Below are positions 2,203-36,243 of a DNA stretch of 64,000 nt, piece after piece. The notes beneath the pieces were generated by a model. It saw nothing but the letters and a program-made list of their open reading frames with translations. It was not told where the DNA came from and did no database searches. Location: the NCBI GenBank assembly GCA_020736575.1, contig JAGPYM010000002.1, positions 2,666,001 through 2,730,000 on the forward strand, written 5' to 3'. Within the stretch, counting starts at the first letter, position 1. Each line of letters starts with the position of its first letter. This stretch comes from Thelonectria olida (Eukaryota > Ascomycota > Sordariomycetes > Hypocreales > Nectriaceae). Made by a program: the position numbers and the translations under genes.

Positions 2203-2321
2203 ACATACGACCATAGCTCTTAGAAAACACTGGGTCCCGTCTGCTCCCCGCACGTTAAGCTGAGAAGCGGCGAACTAGTACTCGGGTCGGTGACGACCGG
2301 GGAATCCTCGCTGTTGTATGT
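2203..2321 (+). rRNA. 5S ribosomal RNA gene (divergent type)
   Basis: The 119-nt segment starts ACATACGAC and ends GTTGTATGT, and these ends pair over nine positions (one G-T) to form helix I. Inside are the landmarks of fungal 5S rRNA: GAAAACAC after the first strand of helix II, GGGTCCCGTCTGCTC, TTAAGC, and the internal-promoter block GGTCGGTGACGACC followed by GGAATCC. The first strand of helix II (GCTCTTAG) pairs with CTGAGAAGC with one bulged A, so the stem is kept. The helix II sequence differs from the usual ascomycete 5S as I know it, suggesting a variant 5S type or a young pseudogene. A TTTTT run follows at 2330-2334. A single copy among unrelated DNA fits the dispersed 5S genes of Pezizomycotina. 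Confidence 0.88.
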
Positions 2322-3796
2322 TGGTATTCTTTTTATTTTAAATTTATTTTTGGACATTTTCATGCTCATGTTGAACACTTTTTCGTCGCCATCTGCTCTT
2401 GTGGGGGATGAGTATTGCATCCCCACATTTAGGAAGGAGTGGACAAGGATCCAAGTGAGCAATATTCCTATTGGATGCATGTATATCCCAACCAATGAGG
2501 GCTCGGGCAGGGGCATTATATAATCAGCCACGACCTTATCCCCATCCATCTTCAGACTTGAAAATTTCATCTCTCTAAAAACTCGGATCACTTCAAACGA
2601 GGTTGCCCTGAATCTGATGCCGGCATTGAAACGCCTCAGCTCTACCAAAAATCTGACGCGGCTTTATCAGCGCTCCTTGCTTCAAGTCAATCTCAATCTC
2701 GCAACCAGCATTGGCCGACCCTCCATTCGTCGTCCAGACCGAGCGGATTCCCTCCGGGCCATGATGAGAGAGGAGAGGCGACACCATCGATCAAGCGCAA
2801 CGGATGATCTGATCTGATCTCTGCCGTCAGGACTGTCGCACAAACGGTAGGTTCCCACGTGAAGTGTCATGCCCATGCAAAACTCTCAAACAAACACGGC
2901 ATTAGTGTGTACAGCAATGGGTTCTCTCCGTGCTCTAATTGCTGAAGGAATATTTTCATCGTGCCAAGATCGAAAAGCCCTATCATTACCAAACACCTAT
3001 GTTCTTGCTTTCCCAAAGACTGCGGTGCATGAAGATAGGGCGACATTACATGCTTCCAACTTCCCTTTATTCTATATGTCTTATCCGTTCGGCCATATGA
3101 TGTTGCGCCAGGCCAGCTCTGCTGTGATGGCGTTGTCATTTCTCGCATCTTCTCATGGATGGGGTGGTTCCGGTAGGCCAAGTCGTCGCGTGTCCGGTTC
3201 TTGGGCCACTTGGTCCCCTCCTGGTCAAACGGCCGTGGCCGAGGACGTGGCCCAATCGCTTCAACTCGTTTGTCGAGGCTTTTCAGCTGGCATGGCCCGT
3301 TCCATCCCTTCAACAGCCTTGGCCTTCTAGAAGGCCGGCCGAGTGAAGTGGCTTCCACCTGCGCGTTTCGGATCTTTGCAGCGAGCCATGGACGAGAGTC
3401 TGGAGTACGTAGTGGCTTTACTTATGCCCTTGTTCCACATCACCCAATAAAACGTGGTCATGAGAGGTTCATGTCGCCTTTGTCAGGGTTGAAGGCCGAG
3501 GCTTTGAGTCAGGGATAGGGATGCATTCCTGAGGATGCATAGTTTGGGCGTAGGAATAGATCACGGAGTCAGTGTTAACATGGGTGAGCTTTATATCTTT
3601 GCAGACCAAAGAAGTAGTCGTCTAAATTTGGGATGGTAGCTTCACTCGAAGGGGACACTCGAGGAGGGCTCTGACTCCCGAAGTTTAGAATAGGAAGAGT
3701 TGATTCCTCGGGGCGTATCGCGGCCTCGAGGTCAAACCCGAAGTGAAAAGGAAACGGTTCTAAGGGTAGCGCTTGCGTGGAATAGTCCTTCATCAG
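2322..3796. other. Intergenic, nothing convincing
   Basis: Several frames of 100-160 codons exist on both strands, but none has recognisable domains and they overlap one another. A small GATCT repeat lies at about 2805-2819. Confidence 0.4.
2330..2334 (+). terminator. RNA polymerase III terminator of the 5S gene
   Basis: A run of five T begins nine bases after the 5S 3' end, the usual pol III stop. More T-rich sequence follows to about 2350. Confidence 0.6.
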
Positions 3797-34454: not shown

Positions 34455-34584
34455 GCCCCTGTGGCCTAATGGTTAAGGCGTGAGAGTAAGCAAGCCTCCT
34501 TCCCATGCTTGACCCTCTATCATGCAATACTGACGACAACAGCTTCTAATCTCAAGATTGCCGGTTCGAGTCCGGCCAGGGGTT
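34455..34584 (+). tRNA. tRNA-Arg (anticodon TCT) with a non-canonical intron
   Basis: Removing 34486-34542 leaves a 73-nt cloverleaf. The acceptor stem is GCCCCTG/CAGGGGT (one G-T). The D arm is GCCT-AATGGTTA-AGGC. The anticodon arm is TGAGA-CTTCTAA-TCTCA, with T33, anticodon TCT (34-36) and A37. The variable loop is AGATT and the T arm is GCCGG-TTCGAGT-CCGGC. The A box (TGGCCTAATGG) and B box (GGTTCGAGTCC) fit pol III consensus. A T14 run (34608-34621) terminates it. The general sequence resembles eukaryotic tRNA-Arg of the UCU/CCU type. Without removal of the 57 nt the anticodon stem cannot close around a normal loop. The alternative reading, a canonical 37/38 intron with anticodon AAG (Leu), fails because the long variable arm of tRNA-Leu is absent. 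Confidence 0.88.
34486..34542 (+). other. 57-nt spliceosomal-type intron inside tRNA-Arg
   Basis: The insertion lies between tRNA positions 31 and 32. It starts GTAAGC, has ATACTGACG 9 nt before its end and ends ACAACAG. Its length, donor, branch and acceptor match the mRNA introns of this window (49-58 nt is the commonest size). Eukaryotic tRNA introns normally lie between 37 and 38 and lack these signals. Confidence 0.7.
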
Positions 34585-34911
34585 AACTATAATAGTCATT
34601 GTGCGACTTTTTTTTTTTTTTGCCCATGTGCCACATGAAGCTAGTGACAAGTCTTCAAGCTGAAACCAAGAGCGCCTCACAAAGCGAACGCCACGCCTGA
34701 CGAGCATATGGACTCTAATAAGAAAACATGGACCCAACCACTGCTCAAGTGAGTATTGTATTGACTCCAATCATATCGAGAACAAAATATTCTCCCTTTC
34801 CAAATGTTTTTCCCAATGTACCTATGTTGAATATCCCCAGATTCCGCTCCCTAACAATCCAAAACCTGACGCATATAAAAGCCACCTGATTAAGCCCCTT
34901 CATAACTCTTC
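34585..34911. other. tRNA trailer and GCV1 3' region
   Basis: Apart from the T14 terminator nothing else is seen. Confidence 0.5.
34608..34621 (+). terminator. RNA polymerase III terminator (T14)
   Basis: Fourteen consecutive T, 24 nt after the tRNA 3' end. Confidence 0.8.
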
Positions 34912-36243
34912 CTAAGAAGTAGGTGCCTTGTGGTACTTGGCTGGCAAGAAAGGCATCTTGGTCACGATACCATTGCGCTTCTTGCCTCGCACTAAAATGT
35001 CCACCTTCGTGCCAGCCTTTTGCAGCCCGTCCTTTATATATCCCATGCCAATGTTTTTGCTCAGAGACGGGCTGGGCACGCCGCTGGTGAGGATGCCGAC
35101 CTTCTCACCGTCAACCTCAATCTCAGCACCCTCACGAGCAGGGGCGCCCTCCACAACGAATCCGACACGGCGGCGTGACACACCCGCGCCTCCCTTGCCC
35201 TTGGGCGTCAGCTGAGGAACGATAACCTCGGCGCCGTGGAAGCCACCGGCCTGGCGGCGGGCAGGGGGGATGATCCAGCTAAGACCAGCCTCGACGGGGG
35301 TAGTGGTGTCGTCGAGATCGTGCCCGTATAGACACATGCCAGCCTCGAGACGCAGAGAATCACGAGCACCTAGGCCAGCAAGCTGGAGACGTTCAGGGCC
35401 AGCCTTGGCGAGAAGGGCTTCGATGGCGGGCGTCGTGGTCTCAAAAGCAGGATACAGCTTGCCGTTGAAGGACAGCTCGAAGCCGTCCTCACCCGTGTAG
35501 CCACCTCGGCTGACGAGAATAGGGTGCGTCTTGCCTCCGTCGGGAAGCTTCAGCTCAACGTAGGCGGCGTTGCCAAAGTAGAGCTCGTTCAGGTTGATGT
35601 CCGAGGCGAGGAGCTCACTGAGAATCTCGGCAGCCTGGGGACCCTGAAGTGCAACCAGACCCGAGTTCTCGAGCACCGTCCACTCGACGTTTCCACCAAA
35701 CTTGCCCAGCTCTTCGTCGAAATACTTGACGTCCTTGTCGAGGCAAGCACCGTTGGTGACGACGTAGTACTCATCCTCACCCAACCTTGTCACGACTGAA
35801 TCGTCGACAATGCCGCCGGTGCCAGGCCACAGGAAAGTGGTCAACTTGCTCTGCATGAAGCCCTGGTTCTTCCAGTCCGAAGGCGTGACCTTCTCGAGGA
35901 AGGCGGCAGCATCAGGGCCCTTGAAGATGTGTTGAACCATGTGGCTCACGTCAAACAGCGAGGCATTGGAACGGGTGAACTTGTGAGACTTTGCAATGGA
36001 CAAGCTGTCGTACTGCACAGGCAGCTTGAAGCCAGCAAAGGGAACCAGCTTGCCGCCGTTGGCAACATGGAAGTCGTACAGAGGCGTCTTCTTGAGGTCT
36101 CCGGTCGACGCACCCGACGCCCGTCGGAGCTGCTGAGAGACGCTCACGGCCGAAGCGGCGGAGAATGACGTAGGGCGAGCAGAAGCAGCCAGGGCCGCCT
36201 GCATCCTGGGACCTGCCCTCGTAGCCATGTTGATGCCCTTCAT
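34912..36243 (-). CDS. GCV1: Aminomethyltransferase, glycine cleavage T protein (mitochondrial)
   Basis: An intronless 443-residue frame with an ATG at 36243. The first 45 or so residues are rich in Arg/Ala/Ser with no acidic residues until GASTGDLKKT, a mitochondrial presequence. The mature part follows T-protein order: KTPLYDFHVANGGKLVPFAGF, LPVQYDSLSIAKSHKFTR, SLFDVSHMVQ, GIVDDSVV, YYVVTNGACLDKD, GLVALQGPQAA, LVSRGGYTGEDGFEL and GLGARDSLRLEAGMCLYGHDL. The C-terminal barrel ends GIVTKMPFLPAKYH. The enzyme takes the aminomethyl group from H protein, releases ammonia and makes 5,10-methylenetetrahydrofolate in the mitochondrial glycine cleavage complex. Length matches other fungal T proteins. 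Confidence 0.97.
   Translation of the reverse strand: MKGINMATRAGPRMQAALAASARPTSFSAASAVSVSQQLRRASGASTGDLKKTPLYDFHVANGGKLVPFAGFKLPVQYDSLSIAKSHKFTRSNASLFDVSHMVQHIFKGPDAAAFLEKVTPSDWKNQGFMQSKLTTFLWPGTGGIVDDSVVTRLGEDEYYVVTNGACLDKDVKYFDEELGKFGGNVEWTVLENSGLVALQGPQAAEILSELLASDINLNELYFGNAAYVELKLPDGGKTHPILVSRGGYTGEDGFELSFNGKLYPAFETTTPAIEALLAKAGPERLQLAGLGARDSLRLEAGMCLYGHDLDDTTTPVEAGLSWIIPPARRQAGGFHGAEVIVPQLTPKGKGGAGVSRRRVGFVVEGAPAREGAEIEVDGEKVGILTSGVPSPSLSKNIGMGYIKDGLQKAGTKVDILVRGKKRNGIVTKMPFLPAKYHKAPTS

Follow-up and report, generated by a model that had tools for sequence, protein, structure and literature searches.

Introns in nuclear tRNA genes are considered the domain of the Sen endonuclease, at a single site in the tRNA. 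Spliceosomal introns are also known outside the protein-coding genes, in the rRNA genes of lichen-forming ascomycetes, which resemble the genes described here in combining an mRNA-type intron with an ascomycete gene that is not transcribed by Pol II, but differ from them in that the host is a Pol I-transcribed rRNA and not a tRNA.

The U6 snRNA gene of Schizosaccharomyces pombe contains an mRNA-type intron (Tani and Ohshima 1989, 1991, as cited in PMC8917221). In that case the host is a component of the spliceosome, whereas here the host is a tRNA, and in two genes the insert stands beside an ordinary tRNA intron. The tRNA introns of eukaryotes are mostly canonical, with exceptions in nucleomorphs and in Cyanidioschyzon, according to the main text of a review (PMC4090602). 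As described there, these exceptions are similar to the present inserts in being eukaryotic, in lying off 37/38, with the D and T arms included, and in that some genes have at least two introns; however, the introns of Guillardia theta are 3-24 nt long and those of C. merolae are BHB-dependent (PMC4090602), while the inserts reported here are 54-67 nt long and follow the order GT...CTRAC...YAG. The word stem 'spliceosom' is absent from the main text of this review and of a second one (PMC4033280), and no precedent for an mRNA-type intron in a tRNA gene was found among titles and the beginnings of abstracts, in a literature from which subscription papers and bioRxiv are mostly missing. The intron class is a known one, and nuclear tRNA genes appear to be a new home for it.

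In this study, we analyze a tRNA-Arg(UCU) gene located within a 64,000-nt stretch of DNA from Thelonectria olida (hereafter, the window), together with two tRNA-Arg(TCG) genes from other contigs of the same genome. Judged by their sequences, the inserts in these three genes are best read as introns of the mRNA type that interrupt nuclear Pol III genes for tRNAs in a member of the Nectriaceae. The ordinary 37/38 (Sen) introns, which are present in the second TCT gene of the genome and in the TCG genes, are likewise introns of nuclear tRNA genes; the inserts differ from them in their location at 31/32 or 52/53, in their mRNA splice signals, and in the AAG product that would result if the window gene were cut at 37/38. 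The coordinates of the main features are collected in Table 1.

Table 1. Features of the window gene and of three insert-bearing tRNA genes on other contigs (window positions unless a contig is given)
Feature	Location	Strand	Basis or remark
tRNA-Arg(TCT) gene	34455-34584	+	130 nt, read from sequence
5' exon, tRNA positions 1-31	34455..34485	+	identical to the C75 TCT gene throughout these 31 positions
A box TGGCCTAATGG, internal Pol III promoter by its consensus	34462..34472	+	sequence and pattern match
Putative mRNA-type intron, 57 nt, between tRNA positions 31 and 32	34486..34542	+	sequence, ARAGORN, motif counts
Candidate 5' splice site GTAAGC	34486..34491	+	sequence
Candidate branch-site motif CTGAC	34530..34534	+	candidate branch A at 34533, nine bases from the insert end
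Candidate 3' splice site CAG	34540..34542	+	sequence
3' exon, tRNA positions 32-73	34543..34584	+	anticodon TCT at 34545-34547; positions 51, 59 and 63 differ from C75
B box GGTTCGAGTCC	34563..34573	+	sequence and pattern match
T14 run, probable Pol III terminator (predicted)	34608..34621	+	sequence; starts 23 nt after the gene
tRNA-Arg(TCG) gene	C79:32059-32214	-	found by A-box...B-box pattern over a wide gap
tRNA-Arg(TCG) gene	C100:244596-244751	-	found by A-box...B-box pattern over a wide gap
tRNA-Ile copy	C78:1627399-1627564	-	41-nt insert, by reading between 43 and 44, adjoining the variable loop

The tRNA-Arg(UCU) gene and its 57-nt insert

Once the 57-nt insert is taken out of the window gene, the remaining 73 nt form a full cloverleaf with a 7-bp acceptor stem, a 4-bp D stem, a TGAGA/TCTCA anticodon stem, the anticodon loop CTTCTAA, and a GCCGG/CCGGC T stem. 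This structure, with its perfect anticodon stem, had been proposed in a sequence-only reading of the locus, and our recomputation reproduced it exactly. With introns allowed, ARAGORN called a tRNA-Arg(tct) whose 57-nt intron lies at 31/32, six positions 5' of where it places the ordinary C75 intron, in agreement with both the earlier Arg(UCU) identity and the earlier location of the insert at 31/32 rather than 37/38. The exon/insert border is fixed, no sliding being possible (A/G...G/C, where slashes mark the border). Without introns, ARAGORN reported zero tRNAs within the window, and Rfam above its cut-offs yielded only a 5S rRNA and missed the tRNA gene; when Rfam was relaxed to E <=10, a tRNA fragment appeared at 34555-34576 (E 8.2). 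Promoter elements and a T run, as expected of a Pol III gene, are all seen in the sequence, namely the A box, the B box, and T14.

The insert reads GTAAGC...ATACTGACGACAACAG and contains, in the order and at the spacing of an mRNA intron, GTAAGC, CTGAC with nine bases past the branch A, and CAG, its GT and AG ends lying on the exact exon border. For comparison, we collected six protein-gene introns of the window: two in RAD51, which were placed from gaps in a tblastn search with two homologues, and four in genes that we take to encode NUP120 (two introns), RPL9, and a kelch protein, which were placed by reading frame and by eye. These six introns are 49-68 nt long; half of them start with GTAAG, in five the A of a CTRAY motif is separated from the intron end by 10-16 bases, and five end in YAG. 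The size and signals of the tRNA insert fall within the range of this set, which confirms the earlier claim that its splice signals are of the mRNA type and like those of the mRNA introns in the same window. The exon border of the window gene is A/C and not of the AG/GT type, which counts against an intron.

A strict motif, defined as GTAAG at the start, YAG at the end, and CTRAC at a distance of 6-35 nt from the latter, fits only 2 of the 127,886 possible placements of a 57-nt segment on both strands of the window. One is the tRNA insert itself; the other has its first base at the 5' splice site of the first NUP120-like intron and overruns the end of that intron by seven bases. Multiplication of the frequencies of the strict motif gives about 6.5e-7. 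Under a looser 5' rule (GTNNG or GTA), the counts for the window are 4/127,886 at 57 nt, 1/127,892 at 54 nt, and 4/127,866 at 67 nt. The insert is probably a spliceosomal (mRNA-type) intron residing in a nuclear Pol III-transcribed tRNA-Arg(UCU) gene. No separate copies of it, as an introner-like repeat would have, were found in the genome search with the whole gene (E <=0.001).

That search, which covered 52.5 Mb in 165 contigs, found a sole other TCT gene at the same threshold, C75:895646-895754, which is also recovered by an Rfam tRNA search of the genome with 63 of 1484 candidates scored. Its exons are as in the window gene, but its intron, of 36 nt, is an ordinary one at 37/38. Three of 73 positions distinguish the mature tRNAs, the window gene having C51, G59, and G63, and two of these, 51 and 63, are T-stem partners that change jointly between C-G and G-C and are thus compensatory. 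Nine matches (14 in the reversed control) were obtained with a pattern for additional TCT genes lacking a 37/38 intron; inspection of each match by eye, together with its 15 flanking bases on either side, left the window gene as the sole tRNA gene among them. A count of other TCT genes had been proposed in the sequence-only reading as a check; it shows that one intact copy exists, although this copy is not intronless. At its start the C75 intron repeats the sequence TCTCA, and the predicted precursor fold accordingly allows the 5' half of the anticodon stem to find its partner within the intron.

The window gene adjoins a gene for the glycine-cleavage T protein (34912-36243, minus strand), the product of which has 90% identity to Mariannaea sp. 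PMI_226, 87% to Ilyonectria robusta, and 85% to Dactylonectria estremocensis. For the RAD51 of the window, the identity to entries from Dactylonectria, Ilyonectria, and Fusarium is 98%. The fungus is a filamentous ascomycete close to these genera. A single 5S rRNA gene is located at window positions 2203-2322 (90.4 bits, full model length), and no other Rfam rRNA match in the window adjoins it.

Inserts in other tRNA genes of the genome

Each of the C79 and C100 tRNA-Arg(TCG) genes contains an ordinary 16-nt intron at 37/38 and, in addition, a second insert at 52/53, in the T stem. This second insert reads CCAG/GTCAGT...CCTAACATGAAATAG/GTTCG in C79 (54 nt) and CCAG/GTCGGT...TACTAACTTTGAACTTAG/GTTCG in C100 (67 nt), with the consensus GTCRGT...CTAAC...TAG, and the genes are followed by runs of 5 and 7 T's, respectively. 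Their mature parts differ at one of 73 positions, namely position 47. The interiors of the inserts, from which six bases at the 5' end, CTAAC, and three bases at the 3' end were excluded, are no more alike than shuffled sequences (110 of 500 shuffles reach their score), while the score of the whole inserts is reached by 0 of 500 shuffles. Retention of the signals while the interior diverges, as expected of a U2-type intron, is seen in these two TCG inserts only. The mRNA-type intron proposed for the window gene by the sequence-only reading thereby gains independent support from two TCG genes whose inserts are alike only at the splice signals.

A genome search with the C79 gene found five TCG copies in total, two of which have the T-stem insert, and no separate copies of the C79 insert (E <=1). 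Taken with the search using the whole window gene, this led us to reject an introner-like repeat. The three other copies are called TCG by similarity alone (91-96% over the 5' part), and in them the exon pieces of the query meet with a 4-base overlap, exactly as if a 54-nt insert were missing. By the letters of the query, this overlap is AGGT, which is the classic proto-splice site. Since the exon's own AGGT can partly supply the GT and AG ends, these ends weigh little at the TCG sites, and it is the branch site, along with the remainder of the 5' splice site, that counts there. The pattern CTAACN{3,24}AGGTTCRANTCC has three matches in the genome and 0 in the reversed control: the two TCG genes and one match on contig C24, which by eye is not a tRNA.

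The genome survey consisted of six A-box...B-box patterns with 40, 8, 30, 12, 18, and 26 matches; the reversed control patterns gave 24, 35, 30, 26, 43, and 33, and most of the survey matches are therefore chance. Assessment of the matches was by eye and used loci or no more than 80 letters each, the letters being read for 11 of the 18 matches of the fifth pattern and for 0 of the 26 of the sixth, one of which is the window gene by its place. The survey reaches inserts within the A-to-B interval whose lengths and T loops fit the patterns. Two matches contain the start of a tRNA-Leu (C2:661085 and C79:379097). Beyond this genome, three scans of viral contigs returned 0 matches each, and a scan of prokaryote contigs returned three, in bacterial assemblies by their titles.

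Two other insert-bearing genes were not counted as further cases. In the tRNA-Ile copy on C78, the insert reads GTAAAC...TTACC, so that its last two bases are CC, directly followed by AG, and CTRAY is absent; a GT-AG cut would leave a variable loop of three bases. Its flanks abut in the paralogues at C100:680919, C155:1077203, C100:596186, and C75:350116 (the last at E 0.167). This copy shows that not every insert in the tRNA genes of this genome is a clean intron. A tRNA-Lys(TTT) gene at C144:1736880-1736989 (minus strand) has a long insert, which by eye occupies the ordinary 37/38 site; this intron of more than 50 nt starts with GTAAC, and its end is not AG.

Alternative explanations of the inserts

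The main rival to spliceosomal introns is that the three genes are pseudogenes, i.e., spare tRNA-Arg copies broken by intron-like or once-intron DNA and never spliced into tRNA. It holds this rank because intact copies of both isoacceptors exist. The sequence-only reading had named as marks of a pseudogene the lack of a spliced product together with several intact intronless TCT genes, and this condition is borne out by half: intact copies do exist, namely one other TCT gene, with a 37/38 intron, and three TCG copies without the T-stem insert. As a consequence, the three insert-bearing genes may be dispensable, and none of them need be essential. The tRNA-Ile copy adds an example of a 41-nt insert without clean splice signals in a gene whose flanks abut in paralogues, and insertions in the D and T arms of eukaryotic tRNA genes are described in review text as residing mostly in one of many synonymous genes and as presumed pseudogenes (PMC4090602). 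However, the exons of the three genes are undecayed. The window gene retains a full cloverleaf and intact A and B boxes, two of the three differences between the TCT genes compensate each other, and the C79 and C100 genes are nearly identical in their mature parts. Moreover, the two TCG inserts keep their splice signals despite diverged interiors, and the strict intron motif is rare in the window. With these points against it, we consider it rather unlikely that the inserts merely mark broken copies.

Far less probable is a non-canonical tRNA intron that is excised by the tRNA endonuclease cutting at 31/32 (and at 52/53), as in nucleomorphs and red algae. Such introns have been reported in the nucleomorph of Guillardia theta and in Cyanidioschyzon merolae, as stated in the review text (PMC4090602), and the C100 insert, in one of five registers, can form a bulge-helix-bulge with 3 of 4 pairs in the centre and 3 of 3 on the outside, a fit in which the 3/4 central pairs are reached by 13% of random placements. 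Against this, the window site at 31/32 has only 1 of 4 central pairs and the C79 insert no more than 2 of 4 in any of five registers; the check is to be read with the ordinary 37/38 introns used as positive controls, which scored just 3, 0, and 1 of 4, two of the three thus failing it. An endonuclease would also leave the order GT...CTRAC...YAG unexplained. At the T-stem sites this route is unlikely because they are far from 37/38, where the enzyme is established to act.

Hardly credible, finally, is an ordinary 37/38 (Sen) intron in the window gene producing a tRNA with the anticodon AAG (Leu): removal of 57 nt at 37/38 also yields a cloverleaf, which ARAGORN calls Leu(aag), but we rejected it, as AAG would then sit on an Arg body of the C75 tRNA-Arg(TCT) type without the long variable arm of tRNA-Leu, in a loop GTAAGCA with C at position 37, and the intact CTTCTAA loop right after CAG would be a coincidence.

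Proposed maturation pathway and implications

If the inserts are mRNA-type introns, Pol III would make an intron-bearing tRNA precursor. The spliceosome would recognize the intron of this precursor in the manner known from S. pombe U6 and join positions 31 and 32 via a lariat, to be followed by end trimming, CCA addition, and modification. The tRNA-Arg(UCG) precursors would undergo two splicing events, one at 37/38 carried out by tRNA endonuclease and ligase and one at 52/53 carried out by the spliceosome. With less assurance than for the window insert taken by itself, we lean towards the broader view that the spliceosome serves as a tRNA-maturation enzyme in this lineage, where at least three tRNA-Arg genes (UCU at 31/32 and UCG at 52/53 twice) would have working mRNA-type introns, the UCG precursors would pass through two unrelated splicing systems, and the tRNA supply would be set in part by spliceosome capacity.

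Such a function would have consequences for gene finding, since both default ARAGORN and the Rfam tRNA model failed to report the window gene, and tRNA finders would therefore overlook working genes. In the pertinent text of the tRNAscan-SE 2.0 paper, the search for non-canonical introns is described for its archaeal model (PMC8450103). The TCG genes, with introns of both kinds, would provide a direct test bed for the order and the independence of the two splicing systems. If true, the spliceosome would act on Pol III precursors beyond U6, and the tRNA supply would be tied to splicing. The presence of candidate mRNA-type introns in the window tRNA-Arg gene and in two more tRNA-Arg genes suggests that in this fungus the mRNA-splicing machinery may also help make tRNAs.
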